Positions 1,910 through 18,843 of a DNA stretch of 64,000 bases are shown piece after piece (within the stretch, counting starts at the first letter, position 1; each line of letters starts with the position of its first letter). The stretch is taken from assembly GCA_004376375.1 (NCBI GenBank), contig SOJX01000142.1, forward strand, positions 1 to 64,000. Reading direction: 5' to 3'. The DNA comes from Planctomycetota bacterium. GTDB lineage: Bacteria; Planctomycetota; E44-bin39. The notes beneath the pieces are model-generated. The model did no database searches, was not told the origin of the DNA, and worked only from the letters and a program-made list of their open reading frames with translations. The translations under genes and the position numbers were made by a program.

Positions 1910-3862
1910 ATGAAACACATTTCCCTGTTATTCCTCGTATCTTCTTTCCTCTTCTGCTCGGTCGGATGATCCGGCGGCGATGATTCAGATTCCAGCGGCT
2001 GGGATCAGAACCCGGGGGGTAAATATGAGAAGAAAAGCGCGCCCCCGCGCCGCAAATCCCGAAAAAGAAAATCCGTATCGTCACGAAAGAAATCTTCATC
2101 GTCCAATGCAGGCCGCCGTGCCCGCAAAACGAAACCGGGTGCAGAAGAAAAATGGCGCGACGATTATGATGATTTTGATGAGGACGAAGACATCGAGCTC
2201 GCACCGGAGCTTTCGCCGAAAGAACAGGCAAGAGCGGACCTGCTTTCGAAGGCATCCACCTCGTTTTCGTTCGGCAACACTTCAGAGGCCCTGAGGCTGG
2301 TGGAAAAGGCCCGCGCCATCCGTAACGGGCCCGACATCGGTGAACTGGAAGGCCATTTCTGTTTCATGGTGGCCCAGGGCGCGCTTCTTAAGAATTCGTT
2401 CGAGGTAGCGCGGTCGTATTACAGGAAATGTATCGAAATCCCCTACAACGGATACAGTTGCCTGATCGGACTCGCGCGCATTGAACTCGGCAGAGGCAAC
2501 AATTCGGGTGTAAAGGTCCATCTAAATTCCGCGCTCGAGTTGACGGGCAATTCAACCGCCGGACTGAGCGACCTGGCGGAGATCGCCAGGAAGGCTTCTT
2601 ACAAAGAACTTGCCATAAGCATCTATAAGAAGGCGGCCAGACTTTCAGGAAAAGCGTACCATGAAAAGTTCCAGCTGGGGTCGTTGTACTGGGACCTGGG
2701 AAACCTCCAGGCCGCGTGGTCGTGGTACGAGGCCGCGCTCTCGGATATGCCGGGATGCCCGTATGCGCTTTATAACCTTGTGCAGGCGGGAATAAGCCTG
2801 CAGAACGCGACGCTGGTTCAGAAGTATTTCGAAATTCAGAAGAAGGCCGCGGCCGATCCAAGCCATGAGACTCTGACCGGAAAGGCTGCCAGGTTTCTTG
2901 CCGCCCACAGTTTTCTCAAAGGCAATTTCGGGAAAGCCTCTGAGTATATTGAAATCGCCGTTGAGTACCTGCCTGAGCGGGCGGACATCGAGAAGGACGC
3001 GGAGTTTCTCAAAGAAGTGCGCTCCCACGGCAGTCAGGATTTCATTCCGCGCGCATGGGGCAACGCATGGTCGCTCGAGATAAATAAATACAGGATAAAA
3101 ACCTGCATCCCGCTGACGGTTGTGCAGGCGGCGTGGCCCCGTGTCTGGAAGGAAATAAACAAGATCGCCGAGTTTTACGGCAAGACGCCGAGGAAGCTGC
3201 AACTGAAAGGCGATATTTATCTTTTCAAGTCCGAAAACGAATACAAGAGCTGGTGCGAAAAAAAGCATCCGAAATGCATGTGGGCCGGTGGGTTTTACAG
3301 CCCTGCGAAAGACCTTATCGTAAGCTACGGTCGTCCGGAAATTGCGCCCGAGAGGCTTGTGACCGTTATCGTTCACGAGGCCGCGCACCAGATTATACGC
3401 CGGGTATGGAAAGAGAAGCTTCCTATCTGGTTCGACGAAGGGATGGCGCAGTATTTTGACACGCGCGTCAACGTGGATGAGCACTGGGGGTACAGCAACG
3501 AGCGCCTGAGCAACTTTGCCATCCTTGCGACCGCGCGGCATAACGGGAACGCGTTTTCTTTAAAACAGTTGCTCTGGGCCGATTATGATGAGTTCTACGG
3601 CGAGGGCAGGCGCGAGCGTTACTACGCCCAGGCCTGGAGCTTTCTCGAATTCATGTTCGAGGCGGGGAAGCTCAAGTGCAACCGCGTACAGATAAAGGAT
3701 TTTCTCAGGCGCTACGACAACAAGTACAGGCAGCAGAAGTACCTCCGGTGGGAAGAAGAGTGGATTAAATGGGAGGCCGACCGGATAAAGGCCCTGGGGA
3801 TTTCCGCCACACCCCGGAAGGTTGAAAAACCACCGGAGGATAAAAAGGAAAAAGACAAGTGA
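1910..3862 (+). CDS. TPR metalloprotease-like lipoprotein with in-frame TGA (candidate selenocysteine) at the lipobox
   Basis: 650 aa if the TGA at 1967-1969 (codon 20) is read through. Residues 1-19 (MKHISLLFLVSSFLFCSVG) form a lipoprotein signal peptide. The TGA stands exactly where the invariant lipobox cysteine should be, and what follows is SGGDDSDSSG, very like the CSGGDSGGD of the lipoprotein at 56904-58127. The frame stays open through a basic Ser/Arg/Lys region, an acidic patch and several TPR-like repeats. The C-terminal domain carries H489-E-x-x-H493 and a downstream E510 (IWFDEGMAQYF), the gluzincin/peptidase-MA pattern. A second gene of this type lies at 13022-14779. Starting at the next Met (2300) would remove the signal peptide and begin inside a TPR helix without a ribosome site. 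The alternatives are a recent nonsense mutation or a TGC-to-TGA sequencing error. Reading the frame as one gene is well supported; the identity of residue 20 is inference. Confidence 0.75.
1984..2010 (+). promoter_or_regulatory. Candidate bacterial SECIS hairpin downstream of TGA 1967
   Basis: GATTCCAG (1988-1995) pairs with CTGGGATC (1999-2006) around the three-base loop CGG. After one A.A mismatch the stem extends by TTC/GAA. The apical loop lies 26 nt after the TGA and has G at its second position, which fits the published bacterial SECIS pattern (loop 16-37 nt downstream, G in the first two loop bases). CCGG at 1971-1974 can pair with CCGG at 2012-2015 as a basal helix. Confidence 0.6.
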
Positions 3863-4067: not shown

Positions 4068-4613
4068 ATGCAGATAATACCTCGGGAGGTCTTCTTCACA
4101 AAGGGAGTCGGGCGCCACAAGGAAAAGCTTGCAAGCTTCGAAGAGGCGCTGCGTAACGCATCCATCGCGGAATTCAACCTGGTCAAGGTTTCCTCGATTT
4201 TTCCACCGGGTTGCAGAATCATTTCACGTGAGCGTGGTCTTGCCCGTCTTGACCCCGGACAGATTATGTATGTTGTGCTGAGCGAGAACGCGTCCGACGA
4301 GCACCGCCGCCTGCTGGCGGCGAGCGTCGGTCTTGCCGCGCCACGTGACCCCAAGATGTATGGATACCTTTCGGAACACCATAGTTTCGGTTCCACCGAG
4401 GACGATGCCGGAGAATATGCGGAAGACCTTGCGGCAAGCATGCTGGCGACTACGCTCGGCGTTTCCTTCGATGCCGACAAGAACTGGGACGAGAAAAAAG
4501 AAGTATTCAAAATGTCGGGCGCGATTGTCCGCACTCGAAATATAACGCAGTCCGCGATGGGGCGCCGCGGCGAATGGACGACCGTTATCGCCGCTGCCGT
4601 ATTTTTGCTATAG
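4068..4613 (+). CDS. pdaD: Pyruvoyl-dependent arginine decarboxylase
   Basis: 181 aa, the usual length for the family. It decarboxylates arginine to agmatine using a pyruvoyl group made by self-cleavage between two serines. The cleavage site is visible as V41-S42-S43-I in [12 protein letters not shown], and the conserved C-terminal Glu-rich region and [11 protein letters not shown] strand are present. The ATG at 4068 is chosen because GAGAGGAGG lies just upstream; a TTG at 4038 in the same frame is less likely. Agmatinase follows 16 bp downstream, so the pair makes putrescine from arginine. argG and argH, which make arginine, are elsewhere in this window (39-42 kb). Confidence 0.92.
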
Positions 4614-4629
4614 ACGGGGCTCTGGCTGA

Positions 4630-5535
4630 ATGCAGCAAATCAGGAATTTCCTCGACATTCCCGACGCAACCGACGCGAAGGTCGTGGTTCTTCCCGTGGC
4701 GTACGACGCCACCGCGACCTACCTGAAGGGCACGGCCGAAGGCCCCGGGGCTGTAATCGACGCGTCGGCCCACGTTGAATACTTCGATGCGGAGCTGGGG
4801 CTCGAGCCCTGCAACGTCGTCGGCATTGAGACTCACCCCGTCATAAAATCTTCCGATTCTCCCGAAAAGTTTCTCCCGGAACTGACGGAGATTTACTCCC
4901 GGATTGTTGCAGGGGGCAGGTTCGTCCTCATGCTCGGCGGCGAGCATTCCATTACTCTTGCGCCGGTGGAGGCGCTGGCGGAAAAGAGAGAGCCGTTTTC
5001 GATCCTCTCGCTCGACGCCCACTCGGACCTGCGCGAGGAATACGAAGGAACGCGTTACGGGCACGGGAGCGTCATGCGCCGCTCCCGCGAGCATGTCGCC
5101 AGGATCGTGGAAGTCGGCGTCCGCGCCCTCGACGTCGAGGAGGCGAGGCTTGTTGAAAGTGACCCGGGTATAACTGTGTTCTTCGCCCACGAGCGCCGCG
5201 ACGCGGATTCGATTGCAGAAGACGTTCTCGAAGCACTGACGGACCGTGTCTACGTTTCCATTGATCTGGATTACTTTGATATGGGAATTGCGCTGAGCGT
5301 GGGGACGCCGGAGCCGGGCGGCGGTTCGTGGTGGGATGCGCTAAGGATACTCAGGCGCGTTTTTGAAAATAAGCGCGTCATCGGATGCGATATCGTGGAA
5401 ACCCGGCCGGCGCCGGGAATGGTTGCAGCGGAATTCACCGCTGCGCGTCTAGCATATAAATTAATCGGATACCGGTTCTGCATAGGAGAGAGCGTGCGGC
5501 ATGGCGGCAAAAAGAAAAAAATCGCCAAAGGGTAA
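4630..5535 (+). CDS. speB: Agmatinase (ureohydrolase)
   Basis: 301 aa. Hydrolyses agmatine to putrescine and urea. The binuclear manganese site is complete: H106 (GGEHS), D129, H131 and D133 (SLDAHSDLR), D212 and D214 (SIDLDYFD). The ribosome site is weak and it is probably translated with the upstream decarboxylase. Its last 35 nt overlap the start of the DksA-like gene in another frame, and its C terminus (GGKKKKIAKG) is basic because the overlapping DNA also encodes the next gene's lysine-rich tail. Arginase is the alternative within the superfamily, but the adjacent arginine decarboxylase favours agmatinase. Confidence 0.92.
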   Translation: MQQIRNFLDIPDATDAKVVVLPVAYDATATYLKGTAEGPGAVIDASAHVEYFDAELGLEPCNVVGIETHPVIKSSDSPEKFLPELTEIYSRIVAGGRFVLMLGGEHSITLAPVEALAEKREPFSILSLDAHSDLREEYEGTRYGHGSVMRRSREHVARIVEVGVRALDVEEARLVESDPGITVFFAHERRDADSIAEDVLEALTDRVYVSIDLDYFDMGIALSVGTPEPGGGSWWDALRILRRVFENKRVIGCDIVETRPAPGMVAAEFTAARLAYKLIGYRFCIGESVRHGGKKKKIAKG

Positions 5536-6238
5536 GGCGAAAAAGAAATCCTCAAGGAAGCAACCGAAGAAGAAACCGGCGAAGAAAAAGCCGGCCAAGA
5601 AGAAAAAAGCGGTAAAGAAGAAACCGGCGAAGAAAAAGCCGGCCAAAAAGAAGCCTGCAAAAAAGAAAGCGGTTAAGAAGAAATCCGTCAGGAGGAAACC
5701 GTCCAGAAAGAAGAAAGCGGCTGGGAAAAGCAGGAAAAAGACTGCCGCCAGAAAGCCGAAGAAGAAGCCGGAGAAAATAACGAAGAAGAAGACGGCGAAG
5801 AAGGCTCCGAAGAAAAAATCGCCCCCCAAGATTGCCGCCAGGCCGAAAAGCCGCAAGATTGTAATTCCCAAGCGAAAGAAAACGCACCAGCTTTCAAGGC
5901 GTGATCAGAGGATATATATAGATCTGCTTGCCCGCAGAAAGCGGCTTATCGAGGAGCTGAGGGAGAAGCTCGCGCTCGACCTTCACGACGATTCGCTGCT
6001 TGACGAAGGGGACCTCGCCAACCGCGACACGGCAAGCGATTTTCTCATGGCCGTCGCGACCATCGAGGGCGAGGAGATAAAAAATATCAACGACGCTTTG
6101 CACGCCCTGAAGGAAGGGACGTACGGCAAGTGCACCGTCTGCGGCAATAAAATCCCGGCCGAGCGGATCAAAGCCCTGCCCAGCGTACAGCTCTGCCTTG
6201 ACTGCAAGCGGAAAGAGGAGCAGGGGGCGCTTTTCTAA
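5501..6238 (+). CDS. DksA/TraR zinc-finger protein with histone-H1-like lysine-rich N-terminal tail
   Basis: 245 aa. Residues 1 to about 128 consist largely of repeated KKKPAKKKPA-type motifs like those of histone H1 and bacterial H1-like (Hc1/AlgP) proteins. Residues 130-245 form a DksA/TraR domain: a coiled coil (LLARRKRLIEELREKLALDL) and a CTVCG...CLDCK four-cysteine zinc finger. DksA proteins act in the secondary channel of RNA polymerase, and the tail would add non-specific DNA binding (inference). The start ATG lies inside speB, with GGAGAGAG about 12 nt upstream, so translation is coupled to polyamine synthesis. The lysine repeats are encoded by near-identical GAAGAAACCGGC-type DNA repeats that could change length by slippage. 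Confidence 0.85.
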   Translation: MAAKRKKSPKGKAKKKSSRKQPKKKPAKKKPAKKKKAVKKKPAKKKPAKKKPAKKKAVKKKSVRRKPSRKKKAAGKSRKKTAARKPKKKPEKITKKKTAKKAPKKKSPPKIAARPKSRKIVIPKRKKTHQLSRRDQRIYIDLLARRKRLIEELREKLALDLHDDSLLDEGDLANRDTASDFLMAVATIEGEEIKNINDALHALKEGTYGKCTVCGNKIPAERIKALPSVQLCLDCKRKEEQGALF

Positions 6239-10644: not shown

Positions 10645-11589
10645 CTAGTCTTCATATATCTTCGGCATGCCGGGCGGGCGGCGTTTCCAGCGCCTGTGCA
10701 CCCATATCCACTGTTCGGGGTACTTCCGCACCATCGGCTCCATCGAGTCCACCAGCCGCTGCGTCATGTCGCGTACCGATTCGTCGAAGTCGCCTTTATC
10801 GATAAAGGGGACGGGATCGAGAACCAGTATGCGGTGTTTCATCCGGGAAACCCGGATTATATAAACGGGCGTGACGGTCATGTTACGTTTGCCGGCGAGT
10901 ACCGCCATCAGGTCCAGCGTTGAAGCCGGGATGCCGAAGAAATCGACAAAAATCCCGCCTTCCTTCGGCTTCGTGTCCTGGTCGAGCACGCTTGCGACGA
11001 GACCGCCTTTGCGGAGCACCTTTATGATCTCCCGCGCGGCGCCTTTCTTGAATATCACCTGCACGCCGCCGTAGTCCCGTTTCGCCATCCAGAAATCGTT
11101 CCAGAATCTGCTGCGGAGCTGCTTGGTTATCAGGTGCACGGGGATTCCGCGCAGGCTGCTCGCGAGCGCAAGCATGTCCCAGTTGCCGAAATGCGCCGTC
11201 ATTGTCAGGATGCCCCGGCCTTCGTCGTGCTGCTTTTTCAGGATTTCCCATCTCTCCCACGTCACCGTGCGACCGATGTTCTCCGGCGTGTAGAGCGGGA
11301 AGCGGATGAACTCCGCCGCGCTTCGCCCCCAGTTGCGCCACATGGCTTTTATGATTTTCCTGTAACGGCCCGGCTCGGATTCTTTGCCGAATACAAGCTC
11401 AAGGTTACGGAAGGCTATGCGCTTCTTGCCCGGCAGAAGGTAATAACCGAGCCCGCCCACGAATTCGCCGAGCCACATCGAGGCCGAAAGCGGCAGCCGC
11501 CGCATGAACGAGAGGAACGCGTCCAGCAGCCTGCCCGCGAGGCGCAGGCGCAGGGGAAACGGTGCATAGGGGTCCCGGCGCCGCTTCAT
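10645..11589 (-). CDS. Lipid A biosynthesis acyltransferase (LpxL/HtrB family)
   Basis: 314 aa. Transfers an acyl chain to lipid A precursors (or a related lipid) at the inner membrane. The catalytic HxxxxD motif is H133-FGNW-D138, followed by a typical KQLRSRFWNDFW and the C-terminal WVHRRWKRRP. The ATG at 11589 overlaps the tilS stop codon as ATGA, which fixes the start; a longer upstream frame exists but lies inside tilS. Last gene of the TPR-peptidase/tilS/acyltransferase operon. It is evidence for an LPS-type outer membrane, though related acyltransferases act on other lipids. Confidence 0.88.
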   Translation of the reverse strand: MKRRRDPYAPFPLRLRLAGRLLDAFLSFMRRLPLSASMWLGEFVGGLGYYLLPGKKRIAFRNLELVFGKESEPGRYRKIIKAMWRNWGRSAAEFIRFPLYTPENIGRTVTWERWEILKKQHDEGRGILTMTAHFGNWDMLALASSLRGIPVHLITKQLRSRFWNDFWMAKRDYGGVQVIFKKGAAREIIKVLRKGGLVASVLDQDTKPKEGGIFVDFFGIPASTLDLMAVLAGKRNMTVTPVYIIRVSRMKHRILVLDPVPFIDKGDFDESVRDMTQRLVDSMEPMVRKYPEQWIWVHRRWKRRPPGMPKIYED

Positions 11590-15472: not shown

Positions 15473-16924
15473 ATGCCGGTGGACGGAGCGAAGTACGATA
15501 ACCCACTCGCAGGCAGGTATGCCTCCGAGGAGATGCTTTCGGTCTTTTCGCCCGAGCGCCGTTACGGCACATGGCGGCGGCTGTGGCTCGAGCTTGCGCG
15601 CGCCGAGCGCGAACTCGGGTTGAAATTTATCTCCAATGAGCATATCGGGGAGATGGAGAAGAACCTCGACGATATCGACTTCGATCGGGTATCGGAAATC
15701 GAGGCCGAAACGCGTCACGACGTAATGGCGCACATTCGCGCGTTCGCCGAGGCCTGCGGCGGGGACGTCGGCGGCGTAATCCACCTCGGCGCTACGTCGT
15801 GCTTCGTTACGGACAATACCGACGTAATTCTTATCCGCGATGCGCTCGACGTACTGATAAGGCGGCTGGTGCGGGTCGTCGATTCGCTGGACCGTTTCGC
15901 CGTGAAGTATTCCGAGCTCCCCACGCTCGGCTTTACGCATTTCCAGCCCGCGCAGATTACGACCGTCGGCAAGCGCGCGTCGCTGTGGCTGCAGGACCTT
16001 GCCGACGACCTGTCGGAGCTCGAGCGCCTGCGTGAAAACCTGGCGCTTCGCGGCGCCAAAGGGGCAACGGGAACGCAGGCGTCGTATCTCGCTCTTTTCG
16101 ACGGCGACAGTGATAAAGTCGTCGAGCTTGAAAACAAACTGGCGGCGGCTTTCGATTTCTGCGCGACCGTGCCGCTGACCGGGCAGACTTATCCCCGCAA
16201 AGTCGATGCGAAAGTACTGGGCGGGCTCTGCGGCATTGCACAATCAGCCTCCAAATTCTCAATTGACCTCCGACTGCTCGCGCACATGCGTGAGATTGAA
16301 GAGCCGTTCGGGAAAAAACAGGTCGGCTCGTCCGCGATGGCATATAAAAGAAACCCGATGCGTGCGGAGAGGATGACCGCACTTTCGCGCTATCTCATGA
16401 CGCTTGCCGGGAACGCGCCTCTGACGGCTGCCTCCCAGTGGTTCGAGCGAACGCTCGACGACTCGGCCAACCGCCGCCTCGTCATCCCCGATGCATTCCT
16501 TGCGGCCGACGCGCTGCTTATCCTCTACGGCTCGATTGTGCCGGGCCTTGTCGTCTACCCGCAGCAGATTGCCTCCCATATCCACGCGGAGCTTCCCTTC
16601 ATGGCGACCGAGAATATCCTGATGGCCGCGGTCGCCGCGGGCGGAGACCGGCAGGAACTGCATGAGAAAATCCGGGTGCACGCGCAGGAGGCGGCGCGCG
16701 AGATGAAGGAATCCGGCGTGCCCAACGACCTGCTTGACCGTCTCGACGGCGACCCGGCGTTCGCGGCGGTCAAGGGGAAATGGGGCGAGATTCTCGATCC
16801 CGCGAAATTCACGGGCCGCGCGCCGCAGCAGGTGATCGAGTTTTCAACCGCTTATATCGAACCTGTGCGAAGAAAATATGCGGATGTACTGAAGTCGTCC
16901 GATGATGCCGACGTAAAGGTCTGA
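15473..16924 (+). CDS. purB: Adenylosuccinate lyase
   Basis: 483 aa. Catalyses two fumarate-releasing steps of purine synthesis (SAICAR to AICAR, and adenylosuccinate to AMP). The fumarase/aspartase-superfamily signature is GSSAMAYKRNPMRAE; other motifs are HLGATSCFVTDNTD and TLGFTHFQPAQITTVGKRA. The ATG at 15473 follows GGGAGCTC; another at 15461 is in frame but less well placed. It belongs to the longer form of the enzyme (about 480 aa), like eukaryotic and some bacterial versions. The next gene starts 3 bp after the stop. Confidence 0.94.
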   Translation: MPVDGAKYDNPLAGRYASEEMLSVFSPERRYGTWRRLWLELARAERELGLKFISNEHIGEMEKNLDDIDFDRVSEIEAETRHDVMAHIRAFAEACGGDVGGVIHLGATSCFVTDNTDVILIRDALDVLIRRLVRVVDSLDRFAVKYSELPTLGFTHFQPAQITTVGKRASLWLQDLADDLSELERLRENLALRGAKGATGTQASYLALFDGDSDKVVELENKLAAAFDFCATVPLTGQTYPRKVDAKVLGGLCGIAQSASKFSIDLRLLAHMREIEEPFGKKQVGSSAMAYKRNPMRAERMTALSRYLMTLAGNAPLTAASQWFERTLDDSANRRLVIPDAFLAADALLILYGSIVPGLVVYPQQIASHIHAELPFMATENILMAAVAAGGDRQELHEKIRVHAQEAAREMKESGVPNDLLDRLDGDPAFAAVKGKWGEILDPAKFTGRAPQQVIEFSTAYIEPVRRKYADVLKSSDDADVKV

Positions 16925-16926
16925 AA

Positions 16927-18273
16927 GTGGAAATAGTTTCACGTTCGTCAGACTCGCCTGCCGGGACGCCCGAGGAGGGCGCGGATTCCTCTCCGGCAAA
17001 ACCTTCCCGCGGGCCGTTTCCCTGGATGACGTTGCTGCTCTTCTGCGTGGTGACCGCGCTTTTCTGCCTCGTGGGAATGGATGCGGGCTGGTCCGGCGAA
17101 ACGCGGGGGACTGGTCTTACGGAACCGGCCCTGGAGTCCATCGACCGCCTCGGCGGTTTTTTTGCAGACGATGTTGAGAACAAACGTTATTACCGTCTGG
17201 TTACGGGAACGCTTTTCCATCCGACGTGGTTCGAGTTCATCCTTGCAGCCGCAGTCATCTTCTGGTCGATATCCCGGCAGGTTGAGAAAATGTGCGGGCC
17301 GCTGACGACCTGCATCGCATATGTGCTGGGGGGCGCGGCCGGGAACGCGGCAATCGCGCTGACCTTATCGGGCGGGCATACGTACATACCGTCTTTCGGC
17401 GGCGTGATTTTCGGCCTCGACGGCGCGATGCTTGGATGCCTGCTGCGGTACCGGTCGGTGTTCCCGAAAGAAGTTTTCACGAGCCTTCTCAAGGGAACGC
17501 TTTTCTGGATTGCGCTTATCACCATTCTGATGTTCTTTGCCTTCAGCGGAACGTGGCATTTTCTTCTCGACATACCGGCCGGGCTTTTCGCGGGCGGTGT
17601 CTGCGGGCTTCTTTTTCCCGTCCGGAAACTCGAGCGTGAGGCGCCTGTCGGCGGCACGGTCCTGAAATACCTCTGTTTTGCGGGAGTAATCGCCGTTCTC
17701 GCGGGCGGGTTCCTTTCACTCGAGGCCGGCGGTGGAGGAGGCGTTTCTCCGGGCATGCCGACTTTTTCAAGCGACGAGCATGTGAACAAGGAAGCCGGTT
17801 TTGCTCTCCGCCTGCCTGAAGGGGCGGATATCAAAACGAGGAAAAAGGACGAGAAAAACGTTACCAATATTGTCATCAAGCCCGGCAAGTTCATTATGAA
17901 TATCACCGTCACGCCTTCGGACGAATCCCCGGAATGGGTGGTGAGCCTGGCCCAGGAGAATCGAAACAGACGCATGCGGAAGCTCGCGAAAAACGAGACT
18001 TTTTCGGACGTGGAATTCGTGAACGCGATGACGCGCGTACTCGGTGGCGTCGAGGGGTACGCGTACCAGATTGTATATAAGGAGATAATTCCGCCCGGGA
18101 CCGGGAAGCCTGACGTTACGTTTATTGCCTGGTTCGAGTTTAATTACCTCCTCATCCATAGGGGGAAAGAATACAGGATCATGTTCGGTTCCGCGGAGGG
18201 CGAAGGGATCGACAACTCGGGAGACGATGAGTTGAGGTGGAAAATCCTGGAGTCTTTCCGGTTCCTGCCGTAG
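16927..18273 (+). CDS. Rhomboid-fold membrane protein lacking catalytic residues
   Basis: 448 aa, GTG start 3 bp after purB. Residues 32-235 hold about six hydrophobic helices in rhomboid order, including LVTGTLFHPTWFEF (loop 1 region) and IPSFGGVIFGLDGAMLGCLL. The position of the catalytic GxSG serine reads G-L-D165-G, and the helix that should carry the catalytic His reads LLDIPAGLFAGG, so serine and histidine are both missing. Residues 260-448 form a soluble domain ending in KILESFRFLP, reminiscent of DcrB/PsbP-like folds (tentative). It is probably a pseudoprotease (iRhom-like) that binds membrane clients. Confidence 0.75.
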   Translation: MEIVSRSSDSPAGTPEEGADSSPAKPSRGPFPWMTLLLFCVVTALFCLVGMDAGWSGETRGTGLTEPALESIDRLGGFFADDVENKRYYRLVTGTLFHPTWFEFILAAAVIFWSISRQVEKMCGPLTTCIAYVLGGAAGNAAIALTLSGGHTYIPSFGGVIFGLDGAMLGCLLRYRSVFPKEVFTSLLKGTLFWIALITILMFFAFSGTWHFLLDIPAGLFAGGVCGLLFPVRKLEREAPVGGTVLKYLCFAGVIAVLAGGFLSLEAGGGGGVSPGMPTFSSDEHVNKEAGFALRLPEGADIKTRKKDEKNVTNIVIKPGKFIMNITVTPSDESPEWVVSLAQENRNRRMRKLAKNETFSDVEFVNAMTRVLGGVEGYAYQIVYKEIIPPGTGKPDVTFIAWFEFNYLLIHRGKEYRIMFGSAEGEGIDNSGDDELRWKILESFRFLP

Positions 18274-18314
18274 CGGTTCATCCTCCATACTTTCCGAATC
18301 ATCGAGGAGCAGGC

Positions 18315-18342
18315 TTGACGGCCCGCCTGCTAAAGCTATAAT
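18315..18342 (+). promoter_or_regulatory. sigma70 promoter TTGACG-N16-TATAAT
   Basis: Perfect -10 and five-of-six -35. A GGGGGAGG ribosome site follows just before the GTG at 18364. Confidence 0.65.
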
Positions 18343-18363
18343 GCAGCCACCGGGGGAGGCATC

Positions 18364-18843
18364 GTGCGTTTGATTCTGGTTGCATTCATTGTATTTTTTG
18401 CCGCGGCGGCAATTGCCGGCGAAGTTGAACAGCCGAAGCCCGCTGATGCCGCTCCCGCTCCCCAGCCTGAAATCCTGCAGAAGGAATTTACCGGCTGGCA
18501 GGATTTCTTCTGGAAGTCACTGCGCTGGGGGGTCCTCGGGGCGCTGATTCAGACCCTGTTTTACCTTGCCGTCGCATACCTCATTAAACTCACTCACACC
18601 GAACTGTACCGGGCCTTAATCGTAGGCCTTCTCTTCGGCGCCGTATTGTTTTTCCTGACGCTCTCGCACTACTACGCGCTTTCGGAGAAGGCGAAGTGGA
18701 ATGTCCTTATATCATGCTGCGTCGCGATGCTTGCGATAATTCCCGCCTATCGCACAAGTATCGCGGAAGCCGTGGTCTTTATAATCATATGCGGGGTCGA
18801 AGCCGTTATGGGCATGGTGATCTTTTACCGTATTCTTGGATAG
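18364..18843 (+). CDS. Small membrane protein with signal peptide and three or four helices
   Basis: 159 aa, GTG start after GGGGGAGG. Signal peptide MRLILVAFIVFFAAAAIAG, a Pro/Ala-rich stretch, then helices at about 58-76, 83-100, 112-128 and 135-157. No family recognised. dacB begins 3 bp after the stop, so the two are co-transcribed and a role in the cell envelope is plausible. Confidence 0.75.
   Translation: MRLILVAFIVFFAAAAIAGEVEQPKPADAAPAPQPEILQKEFTGWQDFFWKSLRWGVLGALIQTLFYLAVAYLIKLTHTELYRALIVGLLFGAVLFFLTLSHYYALSEKAKWNVLISCCVAMLAIIPAYRTSIAEAVVFIIICGVEAVMGMVIFYRILG

Follow-up and report, generated by a model that had tools for sequence, protein, structure and literature searches.

To our knowledge, the lipoprotein pathway of Lgt and LspA is taught as strictly Cys-dependent. 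Bacterial selenoproteins were catalogued in 2026 in 119 families, and the uses of selenocysteine (Sec) that we found described there are redox chemistry, catalysis, and metal binding (PMC13188914). The same source gives the constraints on the bacterial SECIS (bSECIS) hairpin as a loop of 3–9 nt with a G in its first two bases, a stem of 4–16 bp, a distance of 16–37 nt from the UGA, and an energy of −7.5 kcal/mol or lower (PMC13188914). In the literature searched, we found no description of Sec at a lipobox or of the lipidation of Sec by Lgt.

The gene analyzed here lies in a stretch of 64,000 nt from a member of the Planctomycetota, to which we refer as the window; the host metagenome-assembled genome (MAG) comprises 5.68 Mb in 157 contigs and is 94% complete, and 46% of it (2.6 Mb) was read for surveys of Sec and lipobox sites. 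On the plus strand, which carries all features of the gene, positions 1910–3862 form one frame that consists of a signal peptide (MKHISLLFLVSSFLFCSVG, 19 codons, 1910–1966), a TGA at codon 20 (candidate Sec20, lipobox position +1, 1967–1969), and then SGGDDSDSSG, with 630 open codons past the TGA, 620 of them beyond SGGDDSDSSG, and a stop codon at 3860–3862. The start codon is ATG (an in-frame TTG at 1901 is possible) and is located approximately 30 bp downstream of a promoter-like site, TTGACA-16-TAAAAT at 1851–1878, that agrees with the consensus at 11 of 12 positions; unlike most other genes inspected, ATG 1910 has no clear Shine–Dalgarno sequence. The tether (1970–2209) continues from SGGDDSDSSG into a basic Ser/Arg/Lys-rich stretch and an acidic stretch. 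It is followed by a TPR-type helical solenoid (2216–3030, helices from about codon 103), which is recognized by the Pfam models TPR_14, TPR_2, and TPR_8 over cut-off, by TPR chains in the PDB and by confidently modeled helices, and by a DUF1570/peptidase-MA-like domain (3359–3664; PF07607, 32.3 bits against a cut-off of 22), in which the translation reads HEAAH, an HExxH motif (codons 3374–3388), and then WFDEGMAQYF. In the structure model, which was built without an alignment, the TPR part is of fair confidence and the peptidase part is unreliable. These matches make the body of the protein a probable zinc peptidase of the cell envelope, built on a TPR scaffold. An earlier note on this DNA had described a signal peptide of 19 residues, a TGA at codon 20 and SGGDDSDSSG in the same frame, continuous with a TPR/HExxH protein of 630 residues behind a near-consensus promoter, and had pointed to a lipoprotein with C-SGGDSGGD elsewhere in the window; the sequence and its translation, the Pfam matches and the motif, the promoter-like site, and a minus-strand lipoprotein with FAAG-C-SGGDSGGD (Cys codon 58043) bear out this description throughout.

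We found no ortholog with a comparable N-terminus in 59 relatives, 392 genomes of the phylum, and GTDB contigs. The best distant matches are 24–34% identical and mostly confined to the peptidase region, and the readable N-termini of relatives are not comparable with that of the window protein. The TGA at codon 20 is known from one assembly, a single MAG.

To locate the lipobox, we used a profile that spans positions −14 to +9 and was derived from 238 Cys lipoproteins of the host genome with the +1 residue left out. Along the window protein, this blind profile has its maximum precisely at the TGA, with a score that ranks at the 82nd percentile among genuine lipoproteins; the agreement is somewhat inflated, since a lipobox-like pattern served to pick the candidate as well as the lipoprotein set. 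The score of the window protein is reached anywhere in the sequence by 3.7% of 135 other exported host proteins. The claim that the TGA sits where the Cys of a lipoprotein belongs is thus upheld by the host's own profile. The signal peptide has the lipoprotein form, with a charged n-region, a hydrophobic core, a short c-region that is lipoprotein-type by the in-genome profile, and lipobox-type residues SVG at −3 to −1, and the SGGDD tail is lipoprotein-like and matches that of the minus-strand lipoprotein noted above. A Cys at −4 is unusual, being present in 11 of the 238 genuine lipoproteins, and is common to the window protein and P0003, a secreted thioredoxin-like protein of the same genome. 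Because +1 is a TGA and not a Cys codon, we do not file the protein as a standard Lgt/LspA lipoprotein. The host genome encodes two Lgt-family and two LspA-family proteins (G000:C117:6228–7523 and C156:48169–48942; C128:39192–40570). Ordinary Cys lipoproteins of the window (52586, 54501, and 58043) have a Gly/Ser/Asp tether that passes into Gly-Thr/Gly-Ser repeats, for example, GTGSGTGTG.

Sec near the N-terminus of exported proteins is not confined to this gene. In the 2.6 Mb read (46% of the genome), we identified approximately 20 further in-frame TGAs that are flanked on either side by coding sequence, nearly all of them in exported proteins, and several follow a signal peptide that has no lipobox: LPAYC-U-GGGGG, AAGGC-U-GGGG, LIAADQ-U-GPGG, FAQAGG-U-CP, and DTAMA-U-GNCKC. 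The third and fourth belong to a related beta-barrel-like exported pair in which Sec near the mature N-terminus precedes a Gly-rich stretch (LIAADQ-U-GPGG and FAQAGG-U-CPIVPPGGGGGG; L055 4215, minus strand, and L068 9843). The P0003 family comprises seven secreted thioredoxin-like members, six of which have Sec just past the signal peptide (C-U-GGGG-xRPPxRPP), and its loci include L144 (C51:20001–40000) 15571–18627, L145 (C51:40001–60000) 4282–5980, L161 9240–9965, where the member has no TGA, and L141 1476–2342 (minus strand); at +25, a conserved SECIS-like hairpin falls on the RPPxRPP stretch. A scan of GTDB contigs with an alignment of the P0003 family returned no match. The lipobox profile has no peak at Sec in the C-U-GGGG members, the beta-barrel pair, or the U-GNCKC protein. 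It does peak at Sec in two other proteins, P0003 (ATG-U-GGGG) and a paralog (ACG-U-GGGGG), for which the family as a whole speaks for an ordinary signal peptide with a Cys-Sec motif behind it, not for a lipobox. The window protein is the best case of a lipobox Sec among the N-terminal Sec proteins of the host.

These proteins bear directly on the main rival to a Sec-anchored lipoprotein, namely that UGA gives Sec and that no lipid is attached there. The precursor would then be cleaved by signal peptidase I or by no peptidase, and a free Sec near the N-terminus, perhaps together with Cys16 or another thiol, would serve in redox chemistry or metal binding. The many exported host proteins that lack a lipobox and yet have Sec close to the mature N-terminus are in keeping with this explanation, as is the predominance of C-U-GGGG members in the P0003 family, even though P0003 itself is lipobox-like (ATG-U), and the Cys at −4 shared by P0003 and the window protein could mean a C-xxx-U redox motif. 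The blind profile, however, peaks at the TGA of the window gene with a high score, as it does not in most other N-terminal Sec proteins, and the short c-region and the SGGDD tail are those of a lipoprotein. We consider Sec without lipidation somewhat unlikely.

Whether or not the protein is lipidated, the decoding of codon 20 as Sec is likely and well supported. From the TGA to 2300 there is no in-frame ATG, GTG, or TTG, GTG 2300 being the first standard start, and the structure model places this codon within helix 2 of the first TPR repeat, so an intact protein requires that the TGA is read through. Codon bias is neutral over 1970–2101, close to the TGA, and clearly coding over 2102–2299. With codon bias as the sole criterion, screens for read-through could not tell TGA from the other two stop codons, as operon neighbors dominate their results, and the junctions themselves therefore had to be inspected. 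In the 2.6 Mb read, lipobox positions followed by at least 200 open codons are occupied by TGA in three cases, by TAA in none, and by TAG in one, compared with 201 Cys codons; the lone TAG lies in a Ser-rich frame and was judged spurious.

Downstream of the TGA, the sequence GATTCCAG-CGG-CTGGGATC forms a candidate bSECIS hairpin (1984–2010) that consists of an 8-bp upper stem (1988–1995/1999–2006), a CGG loop (1996–1998), an A.A mismatch, and three more pairs, that is, 8 bp or 11 pairs with one mismatch. With a G at the second loop position, a distance of 26 nt from the TGA and an energy of −8.4 to −10.8 kcal/mol, it satisfies the published bSECIS constraints. Taking as controls the 238 Cys lipoproteins of the host genome at the same distance past the Cys codon, we found that its energy is reached by 1.3% of them, the window hairpin being stronger than the remaining 98.7%. 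Across the genome, 11 of 20 Sec candidates satisfy the constraints, versus 6.7% of the 238 controls (Mann–Whitney p = 7e-9). When folding begins at the TGA itself, most of the windows tried have another structure as their energy minimum; the hairpin becomes the minimum once the first ~12 nt, which the ribosome covers, are omitted. A 64-nt fold that begins at the TGA gave no significant result (z −0.75), and an Rfam scan of the region returned chance matches only.

The same evidence weighs on the possibility that the gene is that of an ordinary Cys lipoprotein in which the TGA is a nonsense mutation, a strain variant, or a consensus error. A change of one base (TGC or TGT to TGA) would suffice, and the single MAG, the lack of an ortholog in the searches above, and the weak ribosome-binding site would all accord with a defect. 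Against a defect, neither TAA nor a convincing TAG is found in the 2.6 Mb at a lipobox followed by at least 200 codons, and the long TAA and TAG junctions that were listed resemble, on inspection, normal ends of genes or frames that are noncoding, not single proteins that have been interrupted. Moreover, a random error would not bring with it a hairpin in the top 1.3% at the right distance, and the genome has approximately 20 other Sec candidates. We regard a defect as distinctly improbable.

The host has the full Sec machinery. Three selB genes score over the family cut-off, each with SelB-specific domains (G000 contigs C156, C76, and C10); a single selA adjoins one of them, selD is present and itself has an in-frame TGA, and one tRNA-Sec with anticodon UCA was found. 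With three SelB proteins and one tRNA-Sec found, the SelBs may recognize different SECIS classes. Because selA exceeds the cut-off in 238 of 392 sampled genomes of the phylum, Sec use is normal in this group. Two points raised in the earlier note are supported by these data: the hairpin does fit bacterial SECIS geometry, as judged by the published constraints and the controls, and selA, selB, selC, and selD, on which Sec decoding depends, are all present, which excludes a genome without Sec machinery. In the stretches read, tRNA-Sec is the only UGA-reading tRNA, and both tRNA-Cys genes seen have the anticodon GCA. The machinery and the tRNA complement speak against a third explanation, in which UGA is decoded wholly or partly as Cys, for example, through Cys-tRNA-Sec when selenium is scarce, to give a normal thioether lipoprotein. 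The site calls for Cys chemistry, and Cys in place of Sec is known in other organisms; we nevertheless hold this explanation to be very improbable here. Least probable of all is a downstream start at GTG 2300 or a non-standard codon with the signal peptide as a separate leader or a chance occurrence, which has in its favor the position of that GTG and the neutral codon bias just past the TGA but would truncate the first TPR repeat within helix 2, leave a cytoplasmic protein, place the clearly coding 2102–2299 outside the gene, and reduce signal peptide, promoter, tail, and hairpin to coincidences.

Other Sec candidates of the genome include thioredoxin-like proteins with U-GGC or U-xx-C and a DUF3179 protein in which U occupies a conserved Cys position, DUF3179 being a known selenoprotein family (PMC13188914). 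On the minus strand of L063, adjoining genes with TGAs at 17855, 18425, and 19108 encode a thioredoxin-like protein, the small exported DTAMA-U-GNCKC protein, and a CxxCH-rich cytochrome-like protein, a cluster that from its gene order is a possible selenoprotein operon. Two kelch-repeat proteins with in-frame TGAs lie close together on one contig (GGWEDFC-U-TKATQ and MTKERG-U-PVSAELNDG; L068 5255 and 9005). A Cys lipoprotein, AFFG-C-THKDD, has an internal U-IT-C (L066 10259–10978, minus strand, TGA at 10783); as predicted from its sequence, it is a lipid-anchored selenoprotein with ordinary Cys lipidation and a useful control.

In an alpha-2-macroglobulin-like protein (L114, on G000 contig C60, 1003–6882), the TGA at 5446 stands exactly at the thioester Cys, LPGG-U-FEQTSSRAYP, which from the sequence makes a selenoester possible; further loci with this segment are C136:44281–44580 and C156:53259–53561. 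An alpha-2-macroglobulin gene whose thioester segment has TGA lies directly downstream of the second Lgt homolog of the host. We found no description of Sec in the alpha-2-macroglobulin thioester in the literature searched. Among the matches to the thioester segment listed for the 392 genomes of the phylum, 34, from many families, have one TGA and none has TAA or TAG, which indicates that the lineage puts Sec where exported Cys chemistry is needed; in the host lineage Sec then takes the place of Cys at sites with no obvious redox chemistry.

Returning to the window gene, we give even chances to the reading that it encodes an exported TPR-metalloprotease lipoprotein in which the lipobox residue is Sec, and likewise see the attachment of the lipid to Sec at codon 20 as evenly balanced between true and false. 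Under this Sec-anchored reading, SelB, Sec-tRNA(UCA), and the hairpin at 1984–2010 would recode UGA 1967 to Sec, a step for which the support is strong, and the signal peptide would carry the protein to the membrane. There, Lgt would add diacylglycerol to the selenol and LspA would cut before Sec20, yielding a selenoether-linked lipoprotein tethered by SGGDDSDSSG. When selenium is lacking, ribosomes would terminate at codon 20 and leave just the 19 residues of the signal peptide, of no use by themselves, which would restrict production of the protein to times of selenium supply. Oxidized selenoethers eliminate readily to dehydroalanine, and an oxidation-labile anchor is therefore conceivable. 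More tentatively, then, we propose that lipidation of Sec by Lgt gives a diacylglyceryl-selenoether lipoprotein whose anchor could be labile to oxidation and shed the protease from the membrane under oxidative stress, with synthesis made selenium-dependent by the UGA.

If this is true, Sec as a lipid-attachment residue would give the 21st amino acid a new kind of chemical function and add a new post-translational modification, Lgt and LspA would have a second possible substrate residue, and a class of proteins would escape gene callers and lipoprotein predictors, as these stop at TGA. With approximately 20 mostly exported candidates, and Sec at the alpha-2-macroglobulin thioester across many families of the phylum, the lineage is a rich one in which to look for non-redox Sec.

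Compared with known systems, the window gene resembles the catalogued bacterial selenoproteins in its in-frame UGA, its bSECIS hairpin, and the full Sec machinery of its host, whereas the catalogue contains no TPR/DUF1570 family and no entry described with a lipobox Sec (PMC13188914). The Sec of catalogued proteins is a redox residue or a metal ligand; that of the window protein would be a structural site of lipid attachment. With the DUF1570/peptidase-MA-like metalloproteases it shares the Pfam match over cut-off and the HExxH motif, but an N-terminal Sec signal and tether were seen in the window protein only and in no relative examined. ABC substrate-binding proteins such as SaoB are often lipoproteins. 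SaoB, an exported selenoprotein of this class, has a vicinal Cys-Sec pair (CUxxT, PMC13188914), whereas the +1 residue of the window protein would be Sec itself. P0003 and its relatives are alike in that Sec lies at the end of the signal peptide or close to it and is followed by a SECIS-like hairpin at +25, but most members combine an ordinary signal peptide with Cys-Sec and have no lipobox. Finally, the short signal peptide, the lipobox-like SVG, the Ser/Gly/Asp tether, and the lgt and lspA genes of the host are those of Lgt/LspA lipoproteins, in which a Cys codon at +1 is obligatory, whereas the window gene has TGA. A lipobox Sec would join two known kinds of protein, the selenoprotein and the lipoprotein.
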